NCBI GenBank assembly: GCA_030272585.1
Contig: BSYQ01000001.1
Location: 10,431,001-10,495,000 of the forward strand
Reading direction: 5' to 3'
Source of the DNA: Bryopsis sp. KO-2023
Taxonomy: Eukaryota; Chlorophyta; Ulvophyceae; Bryopsidales; Bryopsidaceae
Length of the DNA stretch: 64,000 bases
This document shows positions 6,196 through 32,253 of the stretch, one piece after another. Below the pieces are notes generated by a model. That model was given only the letters and a program-made list of their open reading frames with translations. It ran no database searches and had not been told where the DNA came from. The position numbers and the translations under genes are program-made. Numbering within the stretch: position 1 is the stretch's first letter; the number at the start of each line of letters is the position of its first letter.

Positions 6196-6665
6196 CATAC
6201 TATGGACGTGATCGGAAATGATCGGCCGTCCATTTTCGATGTCAGGACAGGTCGTTTCATCGATCTGACCTGATACGATCTCGTTCCACATGATTCTGAA
6301 AATGATCGGTCTTTTTTTTTTTTTTTTTTACCGATCATGATCGATGATCGTGATCGTGATCGGCCGATCAAAACCTGATCGATGATCGTGGTCGGCCGAT
6401 CAAAGCTTGATCGTGATCGTGATCGGTTCGCCGATCACCGATCTGATCGGTTGCTCCGATCACGATCCCGATCACGATCAAGCGTTGCGACATGCAAACG
6501 CCTAATCGGCCGATCAAGATCGGTAAAACGCCGATTAATCGGCCGTTGATCCGATCAGCTCCGATCATGGTCGGTTGATCGGGATTTGGTTTCAAATTCC
6601 GATTATGATCGGTCCAAGAAATCAAAAACCGACTTTTGCACCGATCATCACTTCCGATCAAATCC
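6196..6665. repeat. hAT-1 left subterminal GATCGG array
   Basis: Irregularly spaced GATCGG, CCGATC, TGATCGTGATCGG and related strings in both orientations, from the TIR to just before the accessory gene promoter. A T-tract lies at 6309-6329. Such arrays in hAT and CACTA elements bind transposase or accessory proteins; that role is inferred here. Confidence 0.8.
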
Positions 6666-6793
6666 AAAGTTAGTCAGTTCTGCCGTACTGTCCCGAATAT
6701 ATCGACTTCGCTCCCTGTTCGACTTCACCGCACCGTGCGCCTTTGTATCGTGGTATCTTGTTGTTGTCTCGCCTGCAGTGCTGATCGATTGCG

Positions 6794-8592
6794 ATGTACG
6801 TGGAACTCAAAGCACGGCAGTATGTCGTGAGGCTCCGGAACAGGCTCCAAAACCGAACAGACCTGTTCCAGCCCGGGACGGTGGTAGATCGGGATGCCGC
6901 CGAGGTGGTGTTCCGGCATTTGACGTCGCTTAACACGTATTTTGGTCTGGAAAATGTAAGTGTATGCTGCCTGCTATCTGCTGCACTGTTTCTGTTTCGA
7001 ATGTTTTGACTTAGGGTTACTGTTACTTGTCTTCCTAGGCTCTGTTCTGGAAAGCTGCATCCGCCCTGGACAGCGCTGCGGGAAGCGAAGACGAACTTTT
7101 CTTGCGAGCGTACCGAGCGGGCAACCCCCCTGAAAGGCGCATCGACCCCATACTCGATTCCATTCAGGTGACACCTCCAGGACTGACCAGGAAGGGGAGC
7201 ACCAACCTGGGGGACATGGAATACCCCTACATGGTGCCTACAGGTGAGCAGTCCAGCATCAGGTTCAAATTAGGTTGTTTTTCTCTCTGGCCTCTCATTC
7301 ACATTGTATCTTTTGCAGAACTCCTTCGTGATCGCCAGCTATTGCCTCATCTGGACCAGCTCAGAGAGGAGGTTGCAACCATGCACGAGGTTGATCTAGA
7401 TCTGAGCAGAACGTTCGACTGGAGCATCGAAGCTGCAAGTCTTCCAGCACCTGATCCTGCACAAGAGATTTTGCCTGAAGCTACACTTCCAACCGCAGAT
7501 GAACCTGAATCTGAACCTGAACCTGAGGGATCCTCTGAGCAGCTGCCGGAAAACCCGTGGAGTATGACGGACGAGGAGTCTGTTTATGAACCTGAACCTG
7601 TGCTTCACCCTGGTGGAAGAGGCTCCCCCCCAAACATGTTCAGACCTGCTGGAGCTGGTGGAAGAGGGCCACCCCCCAAGCTGTTCAGAGCCTCTGAAGC
7701 TGGTGGAAGAGGGCCACCCCCCAATCTGTTCAGAGCCGCTGAAGCTGGTGGAAGAGGGCCACCCCCCAATCTGTTCAGAGCTGCTGAAGCTGGTGGAAGA
7801 GGGCCACCCCCAAACATGTTCAGAGCTGCTGAAGCTGGTGGAAGAGGGCCACCCCCAAACATGTTCAGAGCTGCTGAAGCTGGTGGAAGAGGGTCACCCC
7901 CAAACATGTTCAGAGCTGCTGAAGCTGGTGGAAGAGGGCCACCCCCAAACATGTTCAGAGCTGCTGGAGCTGGTGGAAGGGGGAATGTTGGTGGATGGGA
8001 ATTCGGGGGAGGCGGCAGGAACAGGAACAGAGCAGGTCAGGGTGGTCAGGGTGGTCAGGGTGGTCAGGGTGGCCAGGGTGGTCAGGGTGGTCAGGGTGGC
8101 CAGGGTGGTCATGGTGGTCAGAGGCAGGCAAACCCCAGACCCCCATTGATGGACAGGTGGCCAATGGATTTTGATGGACAACCTTGCATCAACGACAGTG
8201 AGGGGTACCCTCGGCGCAGGCAGGCCCCCTTGCGAAGGATCATGTCTGAACGGAGCAGGGAACAGCGCAGAACTGCCCAGCGAGAGAGAGCCAACATGCA
8301 GACGGAGTACGCCTTCTTCCCCGACTTCACCATCCAATTCCCGATAACCTTCGCCTCCATGCCCCATCTGAATCAGTTCGTGCAAAACGTGTATCTGCAG
8401 AACTGTTACGCTCTCCACAGAGTCCGTGAAGGCCTCTTCCACCATCAGACCCGTTTGGAGGACCGAAACGTAATGAGGGACCTGGATACTGGCTCGGTCG
8501 ACTTTGCACCGATCCCTGAAGACCGCACACGTGTGTATCGGGTCAGGGTTGGACCGGATGGGAGGTTGGTGGAGGAGGAGGAGCCAAATTAA
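6794..8592 (+). CDS. hAT-1 accessory protein (repeat-rich, unknown function)
   Basis: Exons 6794-6955, 7039-7243 and 7319-8592 splice in phase to 546 residues. N-terminal part (about 1-190): helical, no motif I recognise. Middle: acidic Pro/Glu stretch, then eight copies of a 15-residue unit around GGRGPPPNMFRAAEA and a run of GGQ tripeptides. C-terminal block (about 420-500): FPITFASMPHLNQFVQNVYL and LHRVREGLFHH, clearly shared with the hAT-2 protein at 21255-22894, which also has its first two introns at equivalent positions (after FGLE-N/R, phase 0; then phase 1). It is transcribed toward the transposase gene. I do not recognise the family. A role in binding the GATCGG ends or assisting the transposase is only a guess from context. 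Gene-like features (splice sites, conserved ends) make it more than a chance frame. Confidence 0.8.
7605..7985 (+). repeat. 45-bp in-frame tandem repeat
   Basis: About eight copies of a 45-bp unit encode GGRGPPPNMFRAAEA with small variations (SPP/PPP, NLF/NMF/KLF). Period is a multiple of three, so copy number can change without frame loss. Confidence 0.9.
8034..8120 (+). repeat. 9-bp GGTCAGGGT-type tandem repeat
   Basis: Nine to ten copies of a 9-bp unit encode a Gly-Gly-Gln run within the accessory protein; one unit reads GGTCATGGT. Confidence 0.9.
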
Positions 8593-8619
8593 ATAACCTG
8601 TTTTGAGTCACCATAAACA

Positions 8620-9045
8620 GAGGGTTATCTGTTATCTGTTATCTGTTTTTTGATTCACGTAATGAACCATGAACCAGTCTGGGATCTGTTATCTGTTTTT
8701 TGATTCACGTAATGAACCATGAACCAGTCTGGTATCTGTTATCTGTTTTTTGATTCACGTAATGAACCATGAACCATGAACAGAGGGTTATTTGTGTGGG
8801 CTGAATCAGTGCTGGAATCTGTGGAACCTCTGAAACTTTTTGTTTTGTTTGAGTCATGTAATGAACCATGAACCATAAACAGAGGGTTATTTGTGTGGGC
8901 TGAATCAGTGTTGGAATCTGTGGAACCTCTGAAACTTTTTGTTTTGTTTGAGTCATGCAATGAACCATGAACCATAAACAGAGGGTTATCTGTGTGGGCT
9001 GAATCAGTGCTGGAATCTGTGGAAACCTCTGAAACTTTTTACCAA
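8620..9045. repeat. Tandem repeats between the convergent hAT-1 genes
   Basis: Two repeat families follow each other. The first has about three copies of a unit with TTATCTGTTTTTTGATTCAC and AATGAACCATGAACC (8625-8770). The second has about three copies of a roughly 99-bp unit with CAGAGGGTTATTTGTGTGGG. hAT-2 has an unrelated 98-bp repeat at the matching position. Confidence 0.85.
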
Positions 9046-9264
9046 GCATTCAAAAAAGTTTGGATTACATACCCATACCAAAACAAACAAAACTCGGGGC
9101 AAATCACACCAGGTCAAGATGCAGATTGTCTGATCCATACCCAGCACCCCAAACAGAGAACATACCCGGCACCCCAAACCAAAAAAAGGAGAGTTCCTCC
9201 GAAACAGGAGGGTTCTGAATCAGACTGCAGATTGTCCCACACAATCAAACAGAAGCAGTTCAGG

Positions 9265-11601
9265 TCATGCCCTGAACAGATGCAGATTGTCCCGGAGCAC
9301 GGTCAGTTGGTTGACCTTGCTCTCCTCCATCGCCCTCCTGCGCTTGTTCAGCTGGTGGCCATTGACACTGAACATCCGCTCAACCGAGGCGCTGGAGGCT
9401 GGGATGCAGAGATACTCGGCAGCCAGGATCGAAACTGTTGGGTATGCCGCCTGGTGTACCCTCCACCAGTCCAGAACAGATGAAGTGCTCTGAATAACCC
9501 TCCTGACCCCACAATATCGCTCCCACTCATCAGAATTAGAACCGCCCGTAGCAGATGGAGGAGGGCACACACTGAGCCAGTCCCGTTCGAGATTTTCCTT
9601 TTTCTTTTTTTTTCCCTCTCTGCCTTCCCCCGGATTGTCAACACCTCTGTAATCTGATCGCAGCCGGATCTCCTTCAGCAGAGTCACGCACTCTTGCAGC
9701 ACATCTGAAACCCACAGATCAGGTCTGCTGAATTGCTTCCTCAAGCAAGGAAAGCGCCCTGGGGTGCCCCACAAATACCGATTCACCTCAGCGTCTTCGA
9801 GTGATAGTTTGGTCGGATCCAGATGCTGCATGCACCCGACGGCCAGGAGCCATGCGGGATCGTCAAATTCATGGTCCATGACTGTGCGGAGCACATCTCT
9901 GAAGTCTATCACATCCGGTTCCTCGATGTTCATGGCATCTACCGCAGCGCTGATCCGAGCCATGAGCATCAGGACGGCACTCCCCGTCACCTTCTTTTCT
10001 GCCTCCAGTACCTTGGTTGCTTCCTTGTATGGCCTCAGAACCAGGTACAGTTCCAGCAGCACTTTCCATTCTTGGGGGTTGATATTGTATTGGGGGGGAA
10101 GGAGGGGAAAGAGCTGGATCAGATCGGGTTTCAAAATCAACAATCGATGCAACATGTACCAGATGCTGTTCCACCTAGTCTCCACCGCCAAGGTCAGTCT
10201 GAGAACCTTGTCAGATCTGCGGACAGGTCCTGGGCAGTCTTCTGCCTCCTCCACGTCGTCTCCATCATCGGGACATGCGTCTTCATCACTTGAATATATT
10301 TCCTGTGATGTGGGGTCGTCCTGTTCCTGGCTCTGATGGTCGTTTTGATTAGATTCCTCTTGTGCATCCTCCAGAAGTTCATCCTCATCAACTTGAGATG
10401 GACCGGGGCTCTCACCAAGCCCACCGTTGCCAATCGCAGAGGCACCCGTGGCTGTCGAGGACCGGACCACATAAATTAACTCTTGGGGAGCAGCCTCCGC
10501 TTGTTGCCGTTCCAGATCAGCTTCTTTTCTTTTGGCTCGATCGATCTGAATCTGTTTCAGCTTTTCCCAATGAGTGGATGCACCCATCACTGTTCTGCAC
10601 AGATCGTGTACTTTGGCCACAAGGTCGTTCACGCTTTGGGGGGCATTTTTCAGACCCTTCTTTACCCCCAAATTTATTCTGTGTGTCCCGCACCCGTGCC
10701 AATCGTAACTGTAGTTCATTTCACATGCTGCCCCCATTCTGGACTCGTGATCGGTAACGATGCTGGCCTGATATCCGGTCAGATCAAAGTCCTCCCTGAT
10801 CTCGTTCATTTTTGTGCAAATGTCCACAGCAGTTGCGGTACCCTCCATTTCCCAGGTCCCGAGACTGATCCGCTTGAGTTCGAACAGATCCTGTTCCGGG
10901 TCCCGGTGTATGTAGACAGCCCCCATCGCGAACCAATGCTTGGGCTGCTGAGACCAACCATCAGCAACAAAGCATGGTCGGAATCTGCTCAGATCCATAT
11001 CCTTCATCTTTTTTTTAAGCCTGTTGGAGGACAATCCGACCTGGTGAGACATGGATTTCGCTGATAGAGGCGGAGCAGATGCGTTCAGTTGAGTGCACAT
11101 GTCTCGGAAGTGCTGATCTTCCACTGTCCTGAAGGGGGCCCCGACGCTGACCAGATAGCACATAACCTTGTGCCGGTACGACTGGAACTCCCGGGTAGTA
11201 GGTCCCCATTTAGACACAAACGGGAGTGTTTTCTGGGTCCCAAAAGAACTGATCCGACCCCCTTGTGTGCCTGTTTTCATGTCCTGATCCGTTTGCCTTT
11301 TCAAATGGCAGCCCTCAAAGCCTTCCGCGACAGCAATTTCCATTTCGGAACTGATCCGGATACCGTGTTTGGCCGCATGATTCAAAAGGGGGATCCTGCC
11401 TCCCTTCACCCATGACAATTGTTCATGACAGATTCTGCACGACACCACCTTTCTGCCCCGATCATCCTTATACACCAGGATCTTGCCTTCTGGACTGCTG
11501 ACATACATCTTGTCAACCCATGTGTTACTTCTCCGAACAGGAATCACAGGAGGGCTTGCACCCAGTTCCAGCAGATCAGCTTCCTTTCCATTTCTGTTCA
11601 C
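9265..11601 (-). CDS. hAT-1 transposase
   Basis: 778 codons without a break. Residues about 50-80 form a BED-type zinc finger (CRIC, then NHAAKH at C2H2 spacing). A hAT catalytic region follows: FVADGWSQQPKHWFAMGAVY with the first Asp, IVTDHESRMG, and the DWHGCGTHRINL segment with conserved Cys/His. An acidic linker (DEDACPDDGDDVEEAEDCPGP) precedes the W-containing RNase-H-like second half (ETRWNSIWYMLHRL). The C-terminus has the hAT dimerisation block (WWRVHQ, then SSASVERMFSVNGHQLNKRR). It cuts and pastes the element with 8-bp duplications, matching those seen. The start chosen gives a Lys/Leu-rich N-terminus ahead of the zinc finger; an upstream intron cannot be excluded. Confidence 0.92.
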   Translation of the reverse strand: MNRNGKEADLLELGASPPVIPVRRSNTWVDKMYVSSPEGKILVYKDDRGRKVVSCRICHEQLSWVKGGRIPLLNHAAKHGIRISSEMEIAVAEGFEGCHLKRQTDQDMKTGTQGGRISSFGTQKTLPFVSKWGPTTREFQSYRHKVMCYLVSVGAPFRTVEDQHFRDMCTQLNASAPPLSAKSMSHQVGLSSNRLKKKMKDMDLSRFRPCFVADGWSQQPKHWFAMGAVYIHRDPEQDLFELKRISLGTWEMEGTATAVDICTKMNEIREDFDLTGYQASIVTDHESRMGAACEMNYSYDWHGCGTHRINLGVKKGLKNAPQSVNDLVAKVHDLCRTVMGASTHWEKLKQIQIDRAKRKEADLERQQAEAAPQELIYVVRSSTATGASAIGNGGLGESPGPSQVDEDELLEDAQEESNQNDHQSQEQDDPTSQEIYSSDEDACPDDGDDVEEAEDCPGPVRRSDKVLRLTLAVETRWNSIWYMLHRLLILKPDLIQLFPLLPPQYNINPQEWKVLLELYLVLRPYKEATKVLEAEKKVTGSAVLMLMARISAAVDAMNIEEPDVIDFRDVLRTVMDHEFDDPAWLLAVGCMQHLDPTKLSLEDAEVNRYLWGTPGRFPCLRKQFSRPDLWVSDVLQECVTLLKEIRLRSDYRGVDNPGEGREGKKKKKENLERDWLSVCPPPSATGGSNSDEWERYCGVRRVIQSTSSVLDWWRVHQAAYPTVSILAAEYLCIPASSASVERMFSVNGHQLNKRRRAMEESKVNQLTVLRDNLHLFRA

Positions 11602-12035
11602 TGCAGGGCAGGGCAGGACAGGACAAACACCTCATAAAAGCAGAACCAGAACAACTGGAGAAAGCACAAGCACCTCACACAATCCAACAAGGGAACACCT
11701 CACCCCCCCACAAAACCATAAGAGTACAACAAGGCGGAACAGATCAGGGAGTAACGCACTGTTGGTCAGGTCAGATGCTTGCCCCGACCCCTGCGGCCCC
11801 ACGGATGGAACGCTGCCCTGGCGACGAGGTTCCAACCCCCCGCTTCCAGATCCGGTCGGAACTGGTCTCCTCTGGGACGTGTGTGGGCGTTGCCCCGACC
11901 TCGCAGGGGTGACGAGCGCTTTTCTTTTTCCATGCCGGCCCATTTCGAACGGGGCGCTGATAAGACGTGGAGTTAAACGCTCACCAGATTAACAGCAACC
12001 GAACATGCGATGTGCCCGCGTGACTCAACTGCATC

Positions 12036-12403
12036 TCACCCGCGATCAATGATCGATTCTTGACGCAGACGACCCACCGATCATGATCGGTGTTGCGCCG
12101 ATCATGATCGGCGCAAGCCGATTATAGTCGATCGCGCCGATCACGATCACGATCTCGATCAAGCGCCGCACCCTGTCGGCACCTGATCGGCAGTTTTTGA
12201 TCGGCCGATCACGATCAGGCCGATCAAAAACTGCCGATCAAGTAGGGCGACCGATCAGATCGGTGATCGGCCGATCTTGATCGATGATCGGCCCTGCCAG
12301 ACCTGATCGGCGACCGATCAGATCGGTGATCGGCCGATCACGATTTGATCGGTCGCACTGCTTGATCGGCGACCGATCAAATCGTGATCGGATCCATAGT
12401 ATG
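12036..12403. repeat. hAT-1 right subterminal GATCGG array and TIR
   Basis: Dense GATCGG/CCGATC motifs in both orientations up to the terminal CCATAGTATG. The TIR is shared with the left end for about eleven bases. Confidence 0.85.
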
Positions 12404-14416
12404 CCAGTGCCCCCTGATGTGTTCATTCCAAACTTTTTCGGCCGCTTGCGCGTCTTCGTCCGACCAACCATATGTAAACCCCACATGAAGTGGCCGACTC
12501 AAGAGATCAGCTCCCTTATTTTTTGCTCCTGGGATGAATTCGAAATCAATGTGGGGTTCATTGCTGATAATCCAAGACCACCGCCTTAATGCTCGGACAT
12601 CAGTGTCCTTCATAGATTTGGCCTTCCAACGATCGATCAAAGCCTGTGAATCAGTTCGGACAATCGTGGGTACTTCCCCACGAAGGGCCTTCGTCTTTTT
12701 ACAGGCCCACTGGACTGCTCCCAATTCCCCAAGATACGAGGACGTGGCTTCTGCATGCGCCGTGCTACCAATGTCCATCAAATGCATTGATCCATCAAGC
12801 GACTTAGCGAACAGAAGAAAACCAGAGAACTTTCCACTCCAATCTGTTTCCAACACATATTTACAGGCAGCTCGACCTGGTAGGCTTAAAGCAACAGCCG
12901 AGGAAGTCGCAGCCATAAAAGCATCCCGAACCATTTGTGTAGATCGACTCGTCCAATCGTCCCAATCTCCTGGCCCTTTTTTTACTTCCTTCAGCGCAGA
13001 TCGCAGTGGGGCGAGAACCTGTTCAATTCTCGGAACCATCTTCCTACAGTATGATAGTATTCCGATCGCCCTCTCTAGATCACGGCTGTTGCATATCCGT
13101 TCTGGCACTCCTCCCTTTTCCTGTAAAAACGTATTCAAGTGTACCACGCCATGCGAAACCTCCAGGCCCAGGAACGTCAGATCTGTTTGCAGCCACTGTA
13201 ACTTCCTCAGGTCCACTTTTATTCCGTATGTCTCAAATCTCTCGAAAACCAGCTGCGCATTCCTGAATACTTCCGCGATGTCAGCACCACCCACAAGGAT
13301 GTTGTCCGAATACTGGACCTTGGGCAGACCCTGCAGAATCTCGGCCATTCGCTCACAAAATAACACGCTGCTCCATCTCCATCCCTGCGGGAGGCGCTTC
13401 CAACAATAACGCCGATCCGCAAACGTGAATGCGAATAACGGCTGCAACCTTGGACAGACTGGGAGACTGAAGAAGGCGTCCTTGACGTCAATCTCAAAAA
13501 AGATCTTCCATGAGACCGGTACTTCACGAAGTTTTCTCCAAACATCAGCTTGTTGAGTTATTCCATCACAGAAGTACGCATTGAGCTGACGAAAATCATT
13601 GGTCAGTCTAAATTGTCCATCAGACTTACGAATCGGCAGTAGAGGGTTCAGGAATACCTTTTCCTGATTAGACACTTCCCTCAAATAGCCTTGACGTACA
13701 AATCTCTCGAGCTGTTCTTGGACGACTCGGTAATCTGATGTGTTGTCCATCGCATACTCGGTCCGATTACCATTATTGGATGGCTCGGTCCAAGTCACTT
13801 CATCCGACCTTATTTCCAGTTTTTCCATCGCGGGCGTTATGGGGTGTTTACTGAGATCCCCAACAGAGGGAAACTGTGTTTCCAGTAAACACTTTAGTCG
13901 ATGTGAGGCAGCCTCCAGACTTTCCTCCTGTTTTATTCCAGCCACCTTGGCCCTATCCATTCGTTGCACCTTTAAACGATCAGCGTGAACCATCGCCATT
14001 TTCGTTCGAGGGGTGATCCACAGAGCGTCATCTGTGGTGTTCTGTACATTTATTCGCACATGGCCTTTTTTGGTTAGAACCAGACCAGCCAACAGCCCCT
14101 TTTTATTCAAGGTACATGTTACTGTGACTCCCCCCATCATTTGGACTCGAAAAGGAAGGTGGACTGTCTTCCATTTCCTTGGGGGAATCAGTGTCGCTTT
14201 TCCACACTGCAAAAATCCAACTCCATCAATTATTACTGCCCCTGGCGCACCCTTCGTACACCAAACCTGCGTCAGAGTTGCCTCAGATGCCCGGAGCATT
14301 TTATTCACGACGATATCAGTAGATACCGCCGTCACTGGCAGTTTTTTTGCTTGCCCACTGCTGAGCATTTCACCACACTTCCTGTTTTGGTATCCTCCAG
14401 CGAATGATGGGCACAA
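12404..14416 (-). CDS. Retrotransposon A RT and RNase H (5' part of ORF2)
   Basis: A minus-strand frame entered by frameshift from ORF1 near 14341. Residues about 1-200 are a linker; 240-400 are RT (LTNDFRQLNA, FFEIDVKDAFFSLP with catalytic Asp, LPQGWRWSSVLF). The active-site turn is YSDNILVGG at about 369-377, so the usual second Asp of YxDD is Asn. RNase H follows with Asp in VLETDWSGK, Glu in YLGELGAVQ and Asp in IVRTDSQALI. The start of the integrase zinc domain (NEHIRGHW) runs into the hAT-1 target duplication, where the frame is interrupted. The listed first Met lies inside the overlap and is probably not used for initiation. Confidence 0.88.
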
Positions 14417-15762: not shown

Positions 15763-15887
15763 TCCTCGAGATTCCAGGGAGTCAGAGGCAGTCACACGAA
15801 TCGAGCAGAATGGACTGGCGGCGGAGTCAATACACACAAACCCACAACCCACCGAATAGCTGTTCCCACCAAATATACAATGTCTTA
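15743..15887 (-). repeat. 5' LTR of retrotransposon A
   Basis: 145 bp, matching the interrupted copy at 4445-5063. The inner edge is CATCAACA followed by the primer site (minus strand); the outer edge abuts TAAA. Confidence 0.9.
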
Positions 15888-15987
15888 TAAATTCGATGGC
15901 GGCTCCCCACCCACCCACAAACTGTCATTGCTTTTCGAGTTTGGACGTTTTTGTTTCCAAAGAAGAAACAAGAAGAAGAAGAAGAAA

Positions 15988-17356: not shown

Positions 17357-17363
17357 CGCTTCC

Positions 17364-20990: not shown

Positions 20991-21254
20991 TCAAAATCGG
21001 TTGTGTGGGTCTGATGCCGACTTGCGATCCGAGTACCCGTGTTCACTGACACACCGATGACTCAGATGTGACGTCCAGCGCAAAACTGCCTCCAATATAT
21101 GTCGAGCCTCGAGGCGTTTGGGCCACCTTCTTTTCTCGTGTTATGCTTGGACTTGTCTCTGTTTGCATATTGCGGTCCCTGTTTCGGTCCCTGTTTTTGT
21201 CCCGGTTTCGGTCCCTTTACCCCAGGTCCTGTTTTTTTTCTCTCGGTTTCTGAA

Positions 21255-22894
21255 ATGGTCGACGCGTTCCCTGCTATTCGGTACGCCCGGGAGCTTAACA
21301 GCCTCGGTGGCGCGATTCCTCCCGCGGTGGGAAAAGAACCTGCCGACGCGCGGCAGAGAATCTATGGCTGCGTCCGGTCCCTGCGTCGGTTTTTCGGATT
21401 GGAACGGGTAAGTATCGTTGTCGCGGTTTCTGTTGGTGCTGCTGTTGGTGTCTGTCCGGAAACAGATTTCTTGTTTGCTTGGTTGTGTAGGTTCCGTTCC
21501 TGAAGGTTTGCAGTACTCTCGGATCCGGTTATCTGCAAGCTGCGATGGACAACGACCCGTACCTGCCCAGACTCGTGGACCGTTTGCTGGTGTACCTGGA
21601 GCAAGGCCCACCCGGAATCGTGAGAGAGGGTTACCAGAACCTGGCTTCGGATACGCATCGGGTGATATCGGTTAAAACAGGTGAGTTAAATCAGTTGAAT
21701 ATCTGATGCTGCGGTTGTTTTATTGTTTTTTTCCTGTTAGGGTAACAAGTTGTTGTGTATGGAGCAGGAGTGCTCACAGGATATTGCCTGGAACAGAACC
21801 TGGCTCAGCTAGAAGTTGAGGTCCAGAATATGATAGTAATCTCGGATCAGATTGCTGCAGACTTCTCGATTCCATTACCACCAGCACCAGCACCAGCACC
21901 AGCACCAGCACCAGCACCAGCACCAGCAGCACCACCAGCAGCACCACCCATGCCATCTGGATCAGGATCCTCAGCGCCAGCAGCAGCACCACCGGTTGGA
22001 TCAGGGTCAGGAATGGCACCACCAGCAGCATCGTATGAACCGGCCCCATCAGGACCTGGCTCATTCATCAAGGTGGAGCCTGTGGAACACTGGGGAGACG
22101 ATGACAGCGAAGTGGAGCTGATTGGGGAGTTCCGACCTCAACCAGGGCGTGGATCCTGTGCGGAATATGAAGATGGAGAGTACCCAGATTCAGGATATGG
22201 ATCGGGGTTTGGATCAGGGTTTGGATCGGGGTCAGGACTTGGGTCAGGATCAAGGCCTGGATCAGGATTCGGAAACGAACCTCTCAGAAGTGGTGGCAGG
22301 GGTCCCCAACCTAACTTTGAACAGATGCGGGCCCAGATGCACGCACACAGGCAGGACCAGAGTGAGCCCCAGAGGCAGCCCCAGAGGTACCCAGTAGAAA
22401 CCCCGTTCCCGAGAGATTTTGATGGCTTCTCCTGTCAAACGGATCAGCGCGGTAGAGCCGTGCCCAGAAGGTGCCCAGTACAACAGGACCAGATCCAATT
22501 ATCGGATGAGGAGCGGGTTCAGCTGCGGTTGGAGGACATGGAGCTCAGGACCAGGTACACCTTCAACGGAGATTACAAAATCCAATTCCCCATCAGCTTC
22601 CGGTCGATGGTCCACCTGGTACAGTTCCTCCAAAACGTGGCCCTGGAAAACTCGTGGATTCTCCACAGAATAAAGGAAGCATTATATATCCATGGCATTG
22701 TCATATCAGACACTAAAGTTTACAGGAGAACCGGAAGAGGGGGGTTGGACGGTTTCAGGCGTCATTCAGGGAACTCGGGCACAGTGTTCAGCGTTAGAGA
22801 ATGGAATGATGCACTGGTGGAAGAAATCGATGTTGTAGAGGAGCAGGAGCAGGACCAGGATCAGCAGCACCATGGGGGTGGGTTTGAAGGGTAG
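21255..22894 (+). CDS. hAT-2 accessory protein (unknown function)
   Basis: Exons 21255-21407, 21491-21680 and 21768-22894 splice in phase to 489 residues. Exon 1 ends FFGLER and intron 1 is phase 0, intron 2 phase 1, matching the hAT-1 protein. The middle differs: a Pro-Ala (PAPAPAP) run, acidic stretches and Gly-Ser/Gly-Phe repeats replace the GGRGPPP repeats. The C-terminal block FPISFRSMVHLVQFLQNVAL...LHRIKEALYIHG is conserved with hAT-1 (FPITFASMPHLNQFVQNVYL). Both proteins have a cationic segment just before it and a Glu-rich tail. Conservation of ends and splice sites with divergence of the middle suggests selection on the terminal domains. Function unknown. Confidence 0.8.
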
Positions 22895-23212
22895 GAATGT
22901 GATGATTGTCCAGAGTTTGACAATGGAATGGTGCACTGGTGGGAGAAATCGATTTTGTAGAGGAGCAGGATCAGGATCAGCTTTGCTGGGTAGGAATGTG
23001 ATGATTTGTGATGACTGAGTGGATGTGGATGAAAGAACGAAATGGTACACTGCTCTGGTGGAGGATATCGAGTTTTCAGGAAGCAGTATTGGGATCAGGA
23101 TCAGGACTCAGTGGATCAGTGACTCAGTGGATGATGATGAACGGTTTCCGGACTCAGTGAAATGTAAAACCGTTTGTGGATGATGTTCACCCCGAGGGAG
23201 ACTACGGAAAAC

Positions 23213-23525
23213 TGGAACAGATCCAGGTTGCATGTTGAAAAACTGCCTGTTAAAAAACGGAAAAACCAAGACTGACCCCTCCACAAAAACCCCTGCCAAA
23301 CCATGGAATCTGGAACAGATCCAGGTTGCATGTTAAAAAACTGCCTGTTAAAAAACGGAAAAACCAAGACTGACCCCTCCACAAAAACCCCTGCCAAACC
23401 ATGGAATCTGGAACAGATCCAGGTTGCATGTTAAAAAACTGCCTGTTAAAAAACGGAAAAACCAAGACTGACCCCTCCACAAAAACCCCTGCCAAACCAT
23501 GGAATCTGGAACAGATCCAATTTGC
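23213..23525. repeat. 98-bp tandem repeat
   Basis: Starts of TGGAACAGATCCA at 23213, 23311, 23409 and 23507 give a period of 98 bp and a little over three copies. It lies between the convergent hAT-2 genes. Confidence 0.92.
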
Positions 23526-23575
23526 ATCAGAAACAGATTCAGATCCAGGTTGCAGAAAAAAAGAAGGGAACCACA

Positions 23576-24579
23576 CTAAATCATATCCAGATTGTCCCGT
23601 ATCAGTGTCAGATCCCGCACCTTGGAAACCTGAATCCGCCTCCTGCGCTTATTCAACTGATGCCCGTTAATACTGAACATCCGTTCCACAGATGCACTGG
23701 ACGCTGGTATGCACAAATACTCGGCTGCCAGAACTGCTACAGCTGGGTACAGAGCCTGATTTAACCGCCACCACTCCAGACCTGAAGTCAGTACAGATGT
23801 GAGGGGGGTTGCCCTCACTGCACAGTACCGTTCCCACTCATCTGTTCCTGAATCGGTTGGATCCCCTGATGGATGGACAACTGTGAGCCAGTCATACGTG
23901 GAATGCACCGGGCTTTTTTCTGGTCCTCTGAAGGTGCCGCATGCATCTGCTCCTGCCTCCTGATCCGGTCTCTCTTTGATGCACATTATGAGCTTGTTGC
24001 ACTCCTCTAGCACATCATTCACCCACAGATCGCACCGAGACCACCGAGATTTGAATTCATGGAACTGGTCCGATCCCCACAGATACCGAGTGATAACAGG
24101 ATCATCCAATCGCAAACGTGACGGATCCAGTTGTTGCATGCATCCGACGGCCAGGAGCCAGTTTGGATCATCGAATTCCTCATCCATATTGCTTCTGAGC
24201 TGCTTTCTGAACTGATCCAAGTCCTGACAGGGTAAATCCATTTTGTCGATGATGTCACTGACCCGGGCCATGACCATCAGAACCAGCGAACAGGTGACCG
24301 TTTTTTCAGCCTCCATGCGCTTGGTAGCTTCCTTGTATGGCTGTAAGATCGAATGCAGGTGCCGGAGTTGTATCCATTCCAATTCTGTCAACCGATCCTC
24401 TTCAGACATGGTCTGCAGCATTTTACGCATATCCTCCTTCAGGATCAGGAACCGATGCAGCATGTACCACACAGAGTTCCACCTGGTTTCAACGGGCAGG
24501 GTCAATCTCAGGATCCGCTGCGATCTCCTGACTGGTCCAGGGCAGTCTTCTGTTTCCTCCATCAACCAGTCATCATCAG
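23576..24579 (-). CDS. hAT-2 transposase, C-terminal half
   Basis: Continues the transposase interrupted by element C. It begins in the acidic linker (EETEDCPGPVRRSQ), then ETRWNSVWYMLHRF and the hAT dimerisation region with SSASVERMFSINGHQLNKRR, parallel to hAT-1. The frame matches the N-terminal half across the ATCAG target site if C is removed, so the gene was intact before C arrived. Confidence 0.9.
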
Positions 24580-24852
24580 TGTTATAAACCTCTCTCTCCT
24601 AGGAAAATAACCTCCCAGCGCCCTTCCTTGAAGTCCCTTTAACCCATCAAACCCCCACTCCTTGATGGGACCCTTGAGATGACAGGGATCACCTCAGGGC
24701 GAGACACCTGGGCTTGCTATGAGTCATCCTTTCAGCACACGTGCTATAATGATCTCATGGACCTTAAGCATATGACTAGAGCCATGTTAGTGCCCACGAC
24801 TAACCCTTGAGCTCTAGTAGTGCATAGACATACTCGGCGTACACTTATAACA
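24580..24852 (-). repeat. 3' LTR of element C
   Basis: Contains TCGGCGTACAC near the right edge, absent from the 5' LTR; this accounts for the length difference. Confidence 0.92.
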
Positions 24853-24866
24853 GTGCCCCCTCCCTA
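24853..24866 (-). promoter_or_regulatory. Polypurine tract of element C
   Basis: The minus strand reads AGGGAGGGGGCAC directly upstream of the 3' LTR, the expected plus-strand primer of an LTR element. Confidence 0.75.
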
Positions 24867-25001
24867 ATGTGAAGCCGCCCTCGGCTTTACTAGGGAATCA
24901 AATGCTGATTGGCATCAAGCAAAAGATAGCTGTCTTTTGACATTTGCACTTTCAGAGAAAGAAGATCATCATCATCCAGTGGCCTACTGTGATATGATGT
25001 C

Positions 25002-28000
25002 TCAAACCTTCGCTTTTGATCTTCTACGGATCGTGCGAGGTACTACAGTCGACTGTTCTTGCGATTGGTGAAATGCATCAACCAATTCCTTTGCATGCAA
25101 GACATTTTCTTCGGGTTCCCAAGAGTTATGTTCATGGCCATAACCAAGCCACTTCACAAGGTATTCTGTATGGCATTTCTTCCCTCTGCGTCGCTCTCTG
25201 CGATCAAGAATGCGCTCAACCTCCCACTCCAGATCTCCCTCGATCTCAACAGGTGGTGGTGGTTGTACAGTTCCTTTAGCCCAATATGGCTTTAACAGTG
25301 AAGCATGGAACACCGGATGTATGGGCAAAGTTGCAGGAAGCTTCAGCTTGAATGCAACCTCATTTATTTCACGCTCAATTGGGAAAGGTCCTACCCATTT
25401 TGGCGTTAATTTACGTGAACCTGGGTGCTTGAGTCGAAGATTTCTTGCATCTAATAATACAAGGTCTCCTACTTTGACTTGCACTGGTACACGATGGCGA
25501 TCAGCTTGCGCTTTAAAGCGTTGCTGTGCGGCTTGAAGGCGTTTCTTTGCCTCAACAATCCCTTCCCGAATTTCATTCGTCATTTTCTGAACTTCTGGTA
25601 CAGCCACTTGCTTCGACCCTTTTCTAGGGATCTGAGCAGTTAATGCTGTCCATGGATCTCTTCCATAATTCAGAAAGAAGGGTGTTTCACCAGTTGCTTC
25701 GGATTTAGAGTTATTTATTGCAAACTCTACAACCGGTAACAAATCCGCCCAATTCTTTTGGGATGGCCCGACAAAGTGGCGGAGTGTATCCTCCATGACT
25801 TTGTTCATAGCTTCGGTTTGCCCATCTGTTTGTGGGTGATAAGCCGAAGACAAGGCCTGTGAGATTTCCCATGTATAGCACAACTCCCTGAAGAAGTGCG
25901 ATACAAATCTCGGGTCTCTATCTGTGACCAACTTCTTTGGCATACCATGTGCTTTGAATACATGGTTCACAAAGAGTTTTGCTGCTTCCACGGCTGAGCA
26001 CTCTGTACTTGTTGCCGCCAAATGAACCATTTTGGTCAACATATCCACGAATACGAGGATTGCATCATGACCTTCTCCTCTGGATGGTGGGAGATTAGTG
26101 ACAAAATCCATCGAAACATTTTCCCATTGTGCCTTCGGGATAGGCAAGGGTTTCAGAGGGCCTTGTGGCTTTGTTCGCCTCCCTTTATGCCTTTGACATG
26201 AGTCACATCCTCGCACATAGGATTTGATTTGGTCCTCCATTTGAGGCCACCAGAAATGTTTCTTGATTTGCCGACTTGTCTTAGCCACTCCAAAGTGACC
26301 CGAATAGACAGTGCTATGGCAATCTTGGATTATTTCTTGTCTCAATGATCCATCATTTGGTACTGATATCACATTTCCATTCCACCAAATTCCATCTTGG
26401 TTCTGTAACATCTGGGCAGCTTCCAGAGTTTGATACCAAGGATCTTTGGTGTACCCTTCAACCAGCCTTGACTCCAACTGGGTATGATAACCCCGAGGCA
26501 GAGATGGGACCTCAGGATCCCGCGGTCTAGAAACCAAGCCACTCGATCTCACGGTCTCGCATAATACTCCAATTGAAGAAGGAGAAGACGGTATACGTGA
26601 CAAGGGATCAGCCACATTTACTCGCCCTGGTCTATACTCCCATTCAAATTGGAAATCATGGAGCAATTCTAGCCAGCGGACCTGCCGTCGATTCAAGGTC
26701 GATCGGGAATGAAAGAATGTGTTTGGACTATGGTCGGTAATCACTCGGAATTTTCTGCCTTGCAAGTAGCATCTCCATAATTGAAGTGCATACACAGTAG
26801 CATACATTTCCTGATCACTCGTCGACCAATTGAGTTGTGGACCTTGCAGCTTTTTGCTTTCATAAGCTATTGGGTGTCCTTCTTGCAGGAGAACTGCTCC
26901 AATTGCCTTTGTAGAAGCATCAGTGATTACTTCGAAAGGTTTAGAGAAGTCCGGCAAAACCAAACACGGTGCTTCCGTGAGTGCCGTTTTCACCCCTTCA
27001 AAAGCTGTCTCACACTCATGAGTCCATTCCCATGTCTTCTTCTTTTTGAGAAGATCAGTCATTGGAGAAGCCAAGGCTGAATACCCCTGTACGAACTTGC
27101 GAAAGTAATTGGCGAGTCCGAGGAACGACCTTAAGTCATCCACCCCACTAGGACGAGGCCAATTTTTCACTTTAGCCGTTTTACTCGGGTCAACTGAGAT
27201 ACCATTGCGGCCCACCACGAAGCCTAAGTAGCGCAACTCAGTTTTGTTGAAGTCACATTTGGACTTCTTCAAGAACAATTTATGTTCTCGCAACCTTTGT
27301 AAGACTTCTCGAAGATGTTTCAAATGTTCCTTTGGTGTCTTTGAAAAAACTAAAATATCATCCAAGTAGATCAAGACATATTTGCCAATCATACCATGGA
27401 AGACTGAGTTCATCAGTGTCTGAAACACTGCCGGTGCGTTTGATAATCCCATCGGGAGCACCCGGTACTCAAATAAACCAAAGGGTGTTTTGAAGGCTGT
27501 TTTGGGGATGTCATCTTCCTTGACTCTGACCTGCCAGTATCCGGCTCTCAGGTCAAGAGAAGTAAAACATCCCGAGCCTTGTAACTCATCCAAGAGATCG
27601 TCGATCCGTGGAATCGGGAACTGATTCCGGATAGTTACTTTATTAAGACCCTTGTAGTCTATGCACATCCTGAAGCCTCCATCCTTTTTCGGTACGAAAA
27701 GAACCGGAGCACCCCAAGGGCTAGAACTAGGTCTTATGAGCTTTTTGGCTAAGAGTTCGGACAATTGATCCTGAATCTCTTGCCGCTCTGCGGGTGAATA
27801 CCGAAAAAGTGGCCGGTTTACAGGACGTGTACCTTCTTCTAAAGGAATGTCCACTTCTACGGCTCTTTCCGGGGGATATTCCGCCAAACCAGTTACAAAC
27901 AAATCATCAAATTCCTCCAAGAGAGATTCCATCTCCTTCTCAGGGACTTGATCTGATTCACCGGTTTCCTCCGCTACACTTACATGTGCGGGTACGTCCT

Positions 28001-29399
28001 GTACTTCACGAATTACCACCAGAAATGGTTGAAGAGAGGAATCCTTGAGTTTTCTCTTCACCTGTGGAATAGTGAGTAAGGAACCAACATTTTTGTGGGG
28101 AATGCTTTGTTCTCCACCAGTGGCCTTGGGCAAAAGACCCTGGCGTATCAAGATCCGTTGATTTGCGGAATTCGTCACGGCACACTTCTTCTCAAAGAAG
28201 TCCAAGACTGCCTTGCGATTTCGCAACCACGTATCACCCAAAATGATATCAAATTTCTCCATCAGATCAATCACCAAACAATTCAACTTCTCGCGGAAGC
28301 CTTGAATTTTCAGAGAGATCTTTGTTTCACCTAAGATATCAATATAACTCCCATTGGCCAATTCGGCTTGCGAACTTGTGGTTACCTTGAAGGAAATCCC
28401 ATTTTGTTCACAAAATCTCTTGGAAAGGAATGCTAATCCCTTAGCTCCTGAGTCCAAAAGACAATGGGCAGGAATGCCACTAAGAGTTCCCTCAAAGTGC
28501 ATTGACATCCTGTCTTGGGTAAGTAAATCTTGAGTATCCTTTGGTACCAAGGGGACAGGTGGGTCATAGTATACATTCACTGGCCAAGGAAGACCTGGAA
28601 GTCTTTTCCGGCGCTTTCCTTTCATAGCGGTGAACAAAACCATGCCCTTCTTGTATTGTGCAATTAGTCTCATAGAGGCCAAGGCCGGATGCGGCTCTTT
28701 ATTCCACTGTGGAACCAGAATGCAACAAGAAGTATTGTGTGGAGACTTATTCTTTTCTCTCACATAGTGATCAATGTATTTGTGAAGCTCCTTGAATGGA
28801 GGATTCAGCCATACATGCTCACCCGAAAGAGTAGTCTCAAAAAACCCCTCACCAATACAAAACTTTGCACACAAGGCATTGGTTTGGTCTGAGTTAGCAC
28901 ACCCGTCCAAGCTAAACGCTTGTCCCGTGAGTGACTCGAGACGCTGAAACTCTGCCTTGAGTATTGTTTTGTCTGATTGGATATTAGATCTTTCATTCAC
29001 ATCCTCTGGAGGGACAGAAGTTTGTGCTTCTTCCTGTTTCTCCTTTCTCTTTTGACCACGAGTCACGATAGGCGCTAAATGTGCACTATCCACTTCCATT
29101 GGGTCACAATTAGGATGAGAATTCAAATCTTGCCTCAGAAATTTCCAGTCATGGGGCTTGGACCTCTGAGAAACATGTGTAACAACCTCTTTGGGTTTTC
29201 CACATTTATGTCCTCGTGTCCAAGTCTCTCCACAAAACCAGCACAATCCCAACTGTTTGCGAGCTTTCAACTCTGCTTTGGTCAGTTGGCTGACTGATTT
29301 TCTCTTAGAAACTTGAGGTTTAGAGGAATGCTCAGTAGCATTTTTCCTCTCATCAAAAGAATCACTTTGCCCCGTGTTCTTTTGGGTGGATTTCTGCAT
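25002..29399 (-). CDS. Element C polyprotein: zinc knuckle, Dam-like domain, protease, RT, RNase H, integrase, chromodomain
   Basis: 1465 residues, unbroken. Zinc knuckle at 53-66 (CWFCGETWTRGHKC). Residues about 148-260 resemble the phage N6-adenine methyltransferase (Dam) family: FSLDGCANSDQTNALC, then VWLNPPF (the NPPF catalytic motif, 199-202) and CCILVPQW. Protease with CLLDSGAKGLAFLS (about 313-326). RT with FRMCIDYKGLNKVT and LIYLDDILVFS (intact YLDD-type site). RNase H with VITDASTKAIGAVL. Integrase with GHFGVAKTSRQI, CDSCQRH, VSMDFVTNLP, VTDRDPRFVS and HPQTDGQTEAMN (D,D,E). C-terminal chromodomain at about 1395-1450 (WEVERILDRRERR, YLVKWLGYGHEHNSWEPEENV), which in chromoviruses directs integration to marked chromatin. 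The first Met shown is near the zinc knuckle; upstream Gag sequence is missing. Confidence 0.92.
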   Translation of the reverse strand: MQKSTQKNTGQSDSFDERKNATEHSSKPQVSKRKSVSQLTKAELKARKQLGLCWFCGETWTRGHKCGKPKEVVTHVSQRSKPHDWKFLRQDLNSHPNCDPMEVDSAHLAPIVTRGQKRKEKQEEAQTSVPPEDVNERSNIQSDKTILKAEFQRLESLTGQAFSLDGCANSDQTNALCAKFCIGEGFFETTLSGEHVWLNPPFKELHKYIDHYVREKNKSPHNTSCCILVPQWNKEPHPALASMRLIAQYKKGMVLFTAMKGKRRKRLPGLPWPVNVYYDPPVPLVPKDTQDLLTQDRMSMHFEGTLSGIPAHCLLDSGAKGLAFLSKRFCEQNGISFKVTTSSQAELANGSYIDILGETKISLKIQGFREKLNCLVIDLMEKFDIILGDTWLRNRKAVLDFFEKKCAVTNSANQRILIRQGLLPKATGGEQSIPHKNVGSLLTIPQVKRKLKDSSLQPFLVVIREVQDVPAHVSVAEETGESDQVPEKEMESLLEEFDDLFVTGLAEYPPERAVEVDIPLEEGTRPVNRPLFRYSPAERQEIQDQLSELLAKKLIRPSSSPWGAPVLFVPKKDGGFRMCIDYKGLNKVTIRNQFPIPRIDDLLDELQGSGCFTSLDLRAGYWQVRVKEDDIPKTAFKTPFGLFEYRVLPMGLSNAPAVFQTLMNSVFHGMIGKYVLIYLDDILVFSKTPKEHLKHLREVLQRLREHKLFLKKSKCDFNKTELRYLGFVVGRNGISVDPSKTAKVKNWPRPSGVDDLRSFLGLANYFRKFVQGYSALASPMTDLLKKKKTWEWTHECETAFEGVKTALTEAPCLVLPDFSKPFEVITDASTKAIGAVLLQEGHPIAYESKKLQGPQLNWSTSDQEMYATVYALQLWRCYLQGRKFRVITDHSPNTFFHSRSTLNRRQVRWLELLHDFQFEWEYRPGRVNVADPLSRIPSSPSSIGVLCETVRSSGLVSRPRDPEVPSLPRGYHTQLESRLVEGYTKDPWYQTLEAAQMLQNQDGIWWNGNVISVPNDGSLRQEIIQDCHSTVYSGHFGVAKTSRQIKKHFWWPQMEDQIKSYVRGCDSCQRHKGRRTKPQGPLKPLPIPKAQWENVSMDFVTNLPPSRGEGHDAILVFVDMLTKMVHLAATSTECSAVEAAKLFVNHVFKAHGMPKKLVTDRDPRFVSHFFRELCYTWEISQALSSAYHPQTDGQTEAMNKVMEDTLRHFVGPSQKNWADLLPVVEFAINNSKSEATGETPFFLNYGRDPWTALTAQIPRKGSKQVAVPEVQKMTNEIREGIVEAKKRLQAAQQRFKAQADRHRVPVQVKVGDLVLLDARNLRLKHPGSRKLTPKWVGPFPIEREINEVAFKLKLPATLPIHPVFHASLLKPYWAKGTVQPPPPVEIEGDLEWEVERILDRRERRRGKKCHTEYLVKWLGYGHEHNSWEPEENVLHAKELVDAFHQSQEQSTVVPRTIRRRSKAKV

Positions 29400-29952
29400 T
29401 TTCTTGCAGTATCCCTCTACTTCAAGCCCGCGGCGAAGAAGTGAGTATGAGAGTTATTTTTAGACCAACACCTGTGTTGGGGGAAACCTCTGTGGATATT
29501 CCCTTTGTCCTTTAGACAAATCTGTAACCACCTCTTTGTGTGGATAACTCTTCTTTTCGTGGTGTTTTCTTGTAAACTGCTTTAATTTAATTTTTCTTTG
29601 GACACAACAAGCACCTCTAGGGTCTGCTTGAAAAATCTCTAAAAATCTCAAAATATCGTCCAATCCTGACGAAAAATATTAAGGACCTCTTGGGTCTCCT
29701 TAAAATAGACGAAGGACCTCTTGGGTCTCCTTCGCAACTCGAAAAACCACTCTGCAGAAAGTCTGAAGCAATACCCTAACTTTGACAGAGCATAACTTTC
29801 CGCACACAGCTCGGAATAAACCCCAACTGGACTCAAACGAAGCGGATTTTTCTTAGCTTACTTTTAGACACCTTATTTGTCCAATTCGGACCTTAGACGC
29901 CGAAGTTATCGCCGTTTCCGTGACGGACTCTTCACCTGCTCCGAAACCAAAC
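29400..29952 (-). other. Element C leader without capsid gene; primer binding site at 29938-29949
   Basis: Between the 5' LTR and the polyprotein Met there are about 550 bases with no sustained minus-strand frame. The repeated AGGACCTCTTGGGTCTCCTT lies near 29680-29730. The primer site TGGTTTCGGAGC (minus) is three bases inside the LTR. Confidence 0.75.
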
Positions 29953-30214
29953 TGTTATAAACCTCTCTCTCCTAGGAAAATAACCTCCCAGCGCCCTTCC
30001 TTGAAGTCCCTTTAACCCATCAAACCCCCACTCCTTGATGGGACCCTTGAGATGACAGGGATCACCTCAGGGCGAGACACCTGGGCTTGCTATGAGTCAT
30101 CCTTTCAGCACACGTGCTATAATGATCTCATGGACCTTAAGCATATGACTAGAGCCATGTTAGTGCCCACGACTAACCCTTGAGCTCTAGTAGTGCATAG
30201 ACATACTTTTAACA
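29953..30214 (-). repeat. 5' LTR of element C
   Basis: 262 bp, matching 24580-24852 apart from the 11-bp gap; flanked outside by ATCAG. Confidence 0.92.
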
Positions 30215-31570
30215 ATCAGGACATTCCTCCTCATCAGAGGAGTACATGGGGAAGGGCCCCTCCTCCTCAGCCTGGTTCTGATCCTGATTCTGGTCGGAGG
30301 TGCCAGCCTGACTTCGATTCTGACTCTGGTTCTGACTGCCAACCTGGTTCCGGCTGGCCTGGCTCTGCATATCCGCATCCGCTGCAGCCCGGTCCCGGTC
30401 ATAATCTTCCTTGTATATGCGCGCTTCTTGGATTGTCTTGAAACTTTCCCACAGGTTGGCAGATCCCATGACACGGACACAGATCTGACGGACCTTCTTG
30501 ATCAGGAATTCCAACGGCTCAGGTGCCTGGTTCAGGGCTTTTCTGACTCCGAGATTGATCCGGTGAGTGCAGCATCCGTGCCAGTCGTATTCACCTTTGC
30601 GTTCACAGGCCGCACCCATTCTTGATTCATGATCTGTGACAATGCTTGCCCGGTAATCGCCCAGGTTGTACCGATCCCGAATTTCTGCCATTTTTTTTTT
30701 GATGTCCTCAGCATCACAATTTCCCTTCAGGTCCCAGGTTCCCAAGCTGATCCGCTTCAGTTCAAACAGATCCTGTTCAGCGTCCCGGTGGATATAAACA
30801 GCTCCCATGGCAAACCAGTGCTTCGGTTCCTGCGACCAGCCATCTGCAACGAAGCAGGGTCTGAATTTTCCGAGGTCCTCTTCTCGGATCCTTTTGCTGA
30901 GCCGTTTCGCTGAAAGCCCAACGTTGGTGGAGATGGTCTTTGCACTCAGACAAGGTGCAGATGCATTAAGGGAGGAGCACATGGCTCTGAAATGTTTGTC
31001 CTCCACACACCTGAAAGCTGCACCGGTGCTGACCACGAATTTCATGACATGATCCCGGAAGTTTTTGTACTCTTTGGTCAGGCAGCCCCATCTAGACACG
31101 AAAGGCAACGTTCTCTGGTTTCCGAACGAAACGATCCGTTCCCCCCCCTGCTCCTGATGATGTCCCACAAATCCGTTGTGGACAGCGATCTGCATCTGCT
31201 CCGGGGTGGTGAGACCATGCCTCTTAGCATGGGTCAACAACGAGGTGCGGCCTCCCTTGCTGTAGACCAACTGACTCCTGCATATCCTACAGGTCACTAC
31301 TTTCCTGTTCCATTCATCCACAAATCGCTCCATTTCTCCTGCACTGTTCTGTACATACATGGAGTCCACCCAAGTGTGGATTCCGGTCCGTTTCTGGTTC
31401 TGTGCCTGCGTCCGAGCTGATGTTTGGAATGTGAGATCCACTACAAGACAACCAGCATGAGGCCCAAGGCCATATCTTCTGAAGCATATCAAAGCCCACA
31501 GGTGACATGTCCCTACCTGGAGGCAGATGCAAGGAAACACCAACACCCCAAGAGTGCCCCACCAAGACAA
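30215..31570 (-). CDS. hAT-2 transposase, N-terminal half
   Basis: Homologous to hAT-1 from GIHTWVDSMYVQ onward: BED-type finger (CRICRSQLVYSKGG, HAKRHG), FGNQRTLPFVSRWG, FVADGWSQEPKHWFAMGAVY, IVTDHESRMGAACE, DWHGCCTHRINLGVRK. It ends in the acidic linker YSSDEEECPD at the element C target site. The first 70 or so residues (from MSWWGTLG) have no counterpart in hAT-1, so the true start may lie at a later point or behind an intron. Confidence 0.88.
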
Positions 31571-31889
31571 TCACATCTGATGAGTTCACTGCACAGCAAA
31601 TTTGCCACACTCACCGGTTTCTGTTCCAGATCGTGTTCCTGCTCCTCCTGTTTCCGTTCCAGTTCCAGATCCTCTTCCCCCTCCGCGTGCAACCCCCTTT
31701 GGGTTCACAGAATCAGAGCTCCAGCGGTGTGGCGTCGGCTGAACTGCGTTCGGTTCGCCTCGCAAGTCATCCCCGGACAGCTCGACGGGAGGTAAGATAC
31801 GGTGCAGCGCTCGCGGTTGCGCTCGCGGTTTCGTCTTTCTCCTGTTGCCTCTCATGTTCACGGAAACACGGATAATCCGACGCCACGGG

Positions 31890-32253
31890 CTTTGATGTGG
31901 TGCCGATCAGGGGAATCGGTAGCCGGACCAGCGATTTGATCGTTGTCGAGTGATAATGCGTCGCCGATCATGATCGGCGACGCGCCGATCAGATCGGTCA
32001 ATTTCCGATCTGATCGGAAACCGCCGATCCCGATCCCGATCCGATCTGGTTTCCGAGGCAGAACTGGGTGATCGGCCGATTTTGATCGGAAAAGTCGGAC
32101 CGTTTTTTTTTGATCGGTCCGATTTTGATCGGCGATCGGTCTGATCGGACCGATCTTATCGGTGATCGGCTTGATCGGAAACTGCAGGGACCGATCTTGA
32201 TCGGAGATCGGTTTGATCGATGACCGACATGTCGGCATCGGATCCCTAGTATG
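31890..32253. repeat. hAT-2 right subterminal GATCGG array and TIR
   Basis: GATCGG/CCGATC motifs in both orientations with a T-tract at 32102-32110, ending in ATCCCTAGTATG. Confidence 0.8.

Follow-up and report, generated by a model that had tools for sequence, protein, structure and literature searches.

Two hAT elements with a second gene

The 64,000-nucleotide window analysed in this work (positions 10,431,001 to 10,495,000 of contig BSYQ01000001.1 of the green alga Bryopsis sp. KO-2023) contains two hAT transposons, each of which carries, in addition to a transposase gene, a second gene that is here called the accessory gene. A first-pass annotation of the same DNA had described two diverged elements, in each of which a minus-strand BED/hAT transposase is paired with a convergent plus-strand gene of three exons. 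Both gene pairs were found again, the three exons as a prediction, and the two copies belong to two of the six groups (subfamilies A to F) that were split by percent identity to the query of the genome search described below. Each element is bounded by 11-bp terminal inverted repeats (TIRs) and by perfect 8-bp target site duplications (TSDs).

Element A, of subfamily A, is 6,208 bp long (6196–12403), has the TIR CATACTATGGA at both ends and lies between identical copies of the TSD CCAGTGCC at 6188–6195 and 12404–12411. Its accessory gene is predicted to consist of exon 1 (6794–6955), exon 2 (7039–7243) and exon 3 (7319–8592) on the plus strand, the last of which encodes an N-terminal tail, GGRGPPPN/GGQ repeats (about 7565–8130) and a conserved C-terminal block (about 8140–8589). 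The main frame of the transposase (9265–11631, minus strand) has 788 aa with a BED finger, the D/D/E residues, a C-x2-H motif and the hAT dimerisation domain (Dimer_Tnp_hAT in Pfam, E = 3.1e-18). A short 5' exon is likely, as the conserved part has no preceding start codon. Arrays of the motif GATCGG/CCGATC were read in the accessory-side end (6196–6660) and were both read and counted in the transposase-side end (12000–12403). In the transposase-forward orientation, the last 600 bp, which form the accessory-side end, hold 21 of these motifs.

Element E, of subfamily E, occupies 20616–32253, with the TIR CATACTAGGGA and the TSD GGAACAGC in identical copies at 20608–20615 and 32254–32261. The predicted exons of its accessory gene lie at 21255–21407, 21491–21680 and 21768–22894 on the plus strand; the splice sites of exon 2 were read, and the same model fits the relative L066. 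The transposase, recognised by its frame and by Pfam, is split into a C-terminal part (23576–24598) and an N-terminal part (30209–31570), both on the minus strand, by a long terminal repeat (LTR)-type retroelement on the same strand. The borders of this retroelement (24580–30207) are approximate and were set by 255-bp direct repeats that are 100% identical (24580–24834 and 29953–30207), and no 5-bp duplication was seen at the borders of these repeats. The insertion sites of both A and E are minus-strand frames that look LTR-retroelement-like by eye.

The hAT assignment of the transposases is supported by several features. PF05699 scored above its cut-off in the window transposases and genome-wide, and the dimerisation region matches Hermes chains in the PDB at the sequence level. 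Residues D224, D294 and E751, together with C314 and H317 (numbering of window copy A), which we take to have catalytic roles, are invariant in six aligned transposases, and so are the BED residues C65, C68, H85 and H89. One of the six is a metagenomic transposase (P0001, 39% identity), whose longest contig, at 2,625 bases, does not reach far enough to reveal a second gene beside it. The Pfam zf-BED profile stayed below threshold in the transposase of element E (E = 0.014, 15.9 vs 20.6 bits) and gave no hit in that of element A; the Pfam hits in the window proteins comprised hAT dimerisation, this weak BED match and one chance hit. The TIR consensus is CATACTA[T/G]GGA, and the two ends match at 11/11 bases in A, B and E and at 10/11 in D, while in subfamily C a variant left end alone is retained and the right end was not found. 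The 8-bp TSD is perfect in both window copies, in fetched copies of B (L064), D (L065) and E (L066), and in 3/4 of the elements consisting of ends only that are described below. By these features, the minus-strand genes are hAT transposases.

Pairing of the two genes across the genome

The genome searched comprises 91.1 Mb in 28 contigs, and all genome-wide copy counts are lower bounds. A 241-aa piece of the transposase, used as the first query, gave 113 matches; 21 short ones were left out, and the 92 longer ones analysed were distributed as A 43, E 22, B 15, D 10, C 1 and F 1. The search for further copies with the accessory C-terminal block gave 119 matches, of which 110 were analysed and 9 short ones left out. 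An accessory match lies downstream of the transposase on the opposite strand within 3 kb in 74/92 cases, within 10 kb in 82/92 and within 60 kb in 88/92. The pairing is not a matter of chance, because random scatter would put about 0.002 accessory matches per transposase into this 3-kb opposite-strand interval downstream. Intact members lacking the accessory gene are rare: when the transposase frame is long (at least 770 aa), the accessory match is present within 3 kb in 57/60 copies, and within both 10 kb and 60 kb in 59/60. The long-frame copies with the accessory match at 3–10 kb are C5:2746944 and C2:8759598.

The accessory gene was read in five subfamilies and is present in the sixth, F, by match; subfamily F is known from its matches alone, and the whole-element comparison covers the window copies and one fetched copy each of B, C, D and E. 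The first-pass annotation had named the capture of a host gene in one lineage as a contrary possibility. This is disfavoured, as the accessory gene occurs in every subfamily seen and the genome searches, in which two of the unpaired matches described below were read, gave no clear host-gene-like copy. The family is a lineage of hAT cut-and-paste transposons with two genes.

Other hAT families served as a control, with 56 dimerisation-domain matches assigned to them by frame and profile position. Three of the 56 have an accessory match within 5 kb, for which nesting is likely, because a member of the two-gene family is found within a few kb of each. One control family was sampled in three copies (L079, L080 and L081), all of which have 8-bp TSDs by eye and none of which has an accessory match; L079 holds antisense frames of 143–235 aa. 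This control family is abundant (for example L079 at 500–5644, reverse complement), with a 350-aa C-terminal frame, the TIR CAGAGATAGGACTT in L079 and L080, and a variable tandem array near one end.

Not every accessory match has a listed transposase partner (22/110 lack one, two of which were read). At least four of the 22 adjoin shorter transposase matches that had been left out (C1:15578, C2:1399383, C9:10607 and C12:73843), two lie beside or near a dimerisation-domain match (C9:641473 and C11:2677440), and eight are decayed fragments. Seven of the decayed fragments are on contig C2 (1396706, 2564292, 2948456, 2999551, 4023298, 4415552 and 5048777), which may be an old, poorly recombining region; two fragments that were read (L070 and L071) are without motif arrays. 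At C9:4137465, a long-frame E-type transposase has an E-type accessory match 39 kb off on the same strand (C9:4176860), perhaps through inversion of one element or because two remnants lie close together. With regard to host genes, the window carries at 41732–42391 (minus strand) a gene for the mitochondrial ribosomal protein uS9, with more exons probable upstream, and RbcS genes are found in the nuclear genome. The best PDB chains for RbcS are from Chlamydomonas and those closest to uS9 are from plants, in keeping with a host of the green lineage.

Structure and evolution of the accessory gene

In both window copies, intron 1 is in phase 0 and intron 2 in phase 1. The agreement of intron positions and phases that had been noted between these copies extends across A, B, D and E, where intron 1 follows an FGLE-like motif. 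The predicted proteins have 546 aa in A, 564 in B, 606 in D (with one probable extra intron left unspliced in the model) and 483 in E (in L066), and exon 2 is disrupted in the subfamily C copy. The earlier description of a protein that is repeat-rich in the middle and conserved at both ends also holds, since conserved N- and C-terminal parts flank a Gly/Pro-rich middle whose repeat number differs among copies. The N-terminal parts are 50% identical between A and B, 43% between D and E and 29% between A and E, and the corresponding values for the C-terminal parts are 63%, 44% and 37%. In the accessory gene of B (L064, 5500–6200), the linker repeat seems to hold a 93-bp GT-AG intron, so that the exon-intron unit is present in three tandem repeats and an open frame requires the splicing of each intron.

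The gene models rest on sequence, and the middle is of low complexity, where open frames arise easily, so it could be argued that the accessory frame is an annotation artefact and no gene. The protein conservation of 29–63%, the matching introns across subfamilies and the higher proportion of changes at third positions of the C-terminal block (0.32/0.24/0.58 at the first, second and third positions between A and B) argue against this, and we regard an artefact as hardly credible.

Signs of purifying selection on the accessory gene were seen between subfamilies. By the Nei-Gojobori method, the transposases of A and B gave dN 0.249, dS 0.994 and dN/dS 0.25, and the accessory N-terminal part gave dN 0.497, dS 2.257 and dN/dS 0.22, so that a ratio near 1 does not apply to this closest pair. 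The other pairs gave 0.34–0.55 for the N-terminal part; their dS exceeds 1.2, and saturation makes these values weak evidence. In the C-terminal block the silent sites are saturated to the point that dS was not computable for any pair. In the tree of the transposases, A groups with B and D with E, both with support. The tree of the accessory C-terminal block sets a supported D+E apart from A, B and C and gives no supported grouping among these three; as its one supported group also occurs in the transposase tree, the two trees are without conflict. At fourfold sites, the accessory genes of window copy A and L064 differ at 45/72 (0.62), compared with 96/217 (0.44) in the transposase (p = 0.0095), and the same comparison between D and E (27/46 vs 88/198) was not significant (p = 0.10). 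The higher accessory divergence could possibly reflect gene conversion of transposases, or codon constraint.

In the transposase of recent A copies, 17 synonymous and 27 non-synonymous variants and one stop variant were counted (27/30 loci), with a pN/pS of 0.45. A pN/pS of 0.06 in the accessory C-terminal block of the same copies was discounted, as the 30 loci had been chosen as the best amino-acid matches to that block.

Element ends and non-autonomous derivatives

In five subfamilies, GATCGG/CCGATC occurs 8–24 times per 600-bp end, compared with 4–8 times in the entire middle of 4.8–5.6 kb; for subfamily C, the right end was taken up to the neighbouring element. In 24/30 of the top A loci (L003–L032), the transposase-side TIR is exact and is followed by the same inner sequence. 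Five of the remaining six have no such end in the stretch examined, and the sixth differs by a single base. Most A loci have different 8-bp flanks; shared flanks occur in the pairs L004/L006, L015/L016 and L017/L018, where L018 is the locus with the one change.

A transposase-side 16-mer occurs 322 times in the genome (its reversed control, 0) and an accessory-side 18-mer of A 88 times (control, 0). Both counts are higher than the number of coding copies detected, and pairs of ends about 1 kb apart are present. Three derivatives made of ends only, L072 (1,131 bp), L074 (1,131 bp) and L075 (966 bp), are flanked by perfect 8-bp TSDs and contain no stop-free stretch longer than 97 aa, and the first two of them retain about 266 bp and about 380 bp of the two ends of A; a fourth, L073, has 306 bp and an imperfect TSD. 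As such elements exist with TSDs, whatever element proteins they need act in trans, and the requirement in cis lies in the ends, where GATCGG/CCGATC is concentrated.

Possible role of the accessory protein

We hypothesize that the accessory protein works together with the transposase at the repeat-rich ends, a reading to which we give a probability of roughly 0.55 and which is favoured by the joint occurrence and evolution of the two genes. The protein would be a non-catalytic partner, in which a fast-changing Gly/Pro-rich linker connects the conserved N- and C-terminal parts. Its site of action would be the GATCGG-rich ends, where it would help to build or to regulate the complex of transposase and element end. 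Alternatively, still as a partner at the ends, it may control transcription from promoters near the two ends. The first-pass annotation had reasoned that a maintained second gene suggests a functional partner; the maintenance stands, on the pairing and on dN/dS, and the partner role is what we infer from it.

Several observations weigh against a partner role. With a BED finger, the D/D/E residues and a dimerisation domain of its own, the transposase, unlike that of PIF/Harbinger, leaves no obvious gap that a partner would fill. The accessory protein diverges faster than the transposase (29% identity in the N-terminal and 37% in the C-terminal part between A and E, compared with 54% for the transposase), which would also suit a role facing the host. 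An AlphaFold2 model from a two-row alignment was uninformative (mean pLDDT 41.4). Some accessory copies have no listed transposase, such as C2:4332902–4333318 (plus strand), an open E-type frame of 382 aa near which these searches gave no transposase match and which appears to be an accessory-only copy. Finally, in the recent A copies, exon 1 has 0 synonymous and 4 non-synonymous variants (22/30 loci usable), and exon 2 has 0 synonymous and 5 non-synonymous variants and one stop variant (23/30 loci). This points to little or no constraint on exons 1 and 2 in recent copies, as would be expected if many of them were dead on arrival.

The same lack of obvious constraint could be taken to mean that the accessory gene is a passive passenger, that is, an anciently captured host gene that hitch-hikes with the transposon. 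Such a gene would hardly have been retained through dS near or above 1, and the purifying selection between subfamilies, the near-constant presence in long-frame copies and the missing clear host homologue likewise make a passenger very improbable.

The main rival, which we consider unlikely though it deserves attention, is that the accessory protein is an anti-silencing factor like VANC of the Arabidopsis VANDAL elements, which would bind the end arrays, remove or block host methylation and so allow the expression of both genes. The dense arrays of a short motif in the non-coding ends of five subfamilies resemble the motif arrays in non-coding parts that are targeted by VANC (PMC5735166, PMC10398659; these and the other papers cited are drawn on in excerpt). 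The fast evolution of the accessory protein would also fit. Moreover, in the five accessory-bearing subfamilies (L063–L069 and window 6196–12403), the element bodies have CpG values of 0.50–0.57 with an excess of TpG, compared with 1.47–1.59 in the ends, and the contrast persists outside the motif (1.17–1.39 in the ends vs 0.46–0.53 in the bodies). It may be that the bodies are methylated and the ends are not. However, L079, the one control copy measured, from the family without the accessory gene, shows the same contrast (ends 1.24, middle 0.53), so the CpG pattern is no mark of the accessory gene and gives no support to anti-silencing, and it was dropped as a sign of it. In addition, C-to-T changes in recent A copies show no clear enrichment at CpG (9/328 CpG sites vs 29/1220, ratio 1.15), and the accessory protein has no Pfam match. 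BED hAT transposases also usually bind subterminal arrays themselves.

The accessory protein may instead serve some other need of the element, such as countering another host defence, handling RNA via the Gly/Arg-containing linker, or choosing the target. An orphan protein with a Gly/Pro-rich linker of varying repeat number would allow for this. No positive evidence for it was obtained, and the conservation lies in the two end parts and not in the linker, so we think it quite improbable. Compared with these alternatives, a partner of the transposase at the ends is the reading that we prefer. That the family is an obligate two-protein hAT system, in which an orphan family became necessary for transposition or for escape from silencing independently of Harbinger, MuDR/VANDAL and En/Spm, has in our judgement slightly less than an even chance.

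Relatives and comparison with known transposons

A profile search with the accessory protein gave no Pfam domain, no known enzymatic domain was recognised, and the PDB held no significant sequence relative; an SPX-domain hit (E = 0.46) was not significant. Among 5.8 billion predicted proteins, no homologue was found with either the A sequence or an alignment of four subfamilies, in a search that needs shared short words and that distant relatives may escape. Viral contigs scanned with both proteins, and genome contigs scanned with the transposase for prokaryotic relatives, yielded no confirmed relative. In the open-access literature without Repbase, none of the matches listed describes, by title or abstract, a hAT element with a second conserved gene.

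To our knowledge, the transposase is the sole gene of known hAT elements. The present family shares with classic hAT elements (Ac, hobo, Tam3, Hermes and Tol2) the 8-bp TSD, the short TIR, the BED finger, the D/D/E residues with C-x2-H, the C-terminal dimerisation domain and the non-autonomous derivatives. It differs in its second, conserved and convergent gene, although the possession of a sole gene is typical of hAT and not defining. The algal hAT element Ace of Tisochrysis has a single open reading frame (PMC10138859).

Two-protein designs are known from other DNA transposons, namely PIF/Harbinger (PMC2836001), Mutator-like elements (MULEs; PMC6446971) and VANDALs (PMC5735166, PMC10398659), and two papers matched for a second open reading frame (PMC4423477 and PMC2528002) deal with Mutator and PIF. 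In MuDR/VANDAL, as here, a transposase is combined with an unrelated second gene (mudrB, MutB or VANB/VANC; PMC6446971). Those elements have a transposase of another superfamily, and no MULE domain was among the Pfam hits here; this comparison covers the transposases. The MULE TSDs given in the excerpts are of 8–10 bp, so this family is not distinguished from them by the length of the TSD alone. Virtually all coding PIF/Harbinger elements carry two independent genes, a Myb-like ORF1 and a transposase, and they have a 3-bp TSD and a transposase without an obvious DNA-binding domain (PMC2836001). In contrast, the present family has an 8-bp TSD, a BED finger on the transposase and an accessory protein with neither Myb nor any other domain.

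Two proteins, TnpA and TnpD, together with subterminal motif arrays are also characteristic of En/Spm (CACTA), which has a 3-bp TSD and a CACTA TIR. The family described here resembles En/Spm in both the two proteins and the arrays, and it differs in having two convergent genes, a TIR that starts with CATACTA and a TSD of 8 bp. The CACTA proteins arise by alternative splicing (PMC2836001).

What appears to be new is thus a hAT lineage with a new accessory protein family, the two-gene design itself being known in other DNA transposons. Textbook examples of one-protein transposons, the hAT elements have also yielded vectors in wide use; those with this second gene may use two proteins instead of one. 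A second gene kept through at least five subfamilies makes it possible to test directly why two proteins are used by some DNA transposons, and the many near-identical copies, with matching non-autonomous elements, make a two-component assay possible with natural copies. The accessory protein would then represent a new protein family without an assigned fold.

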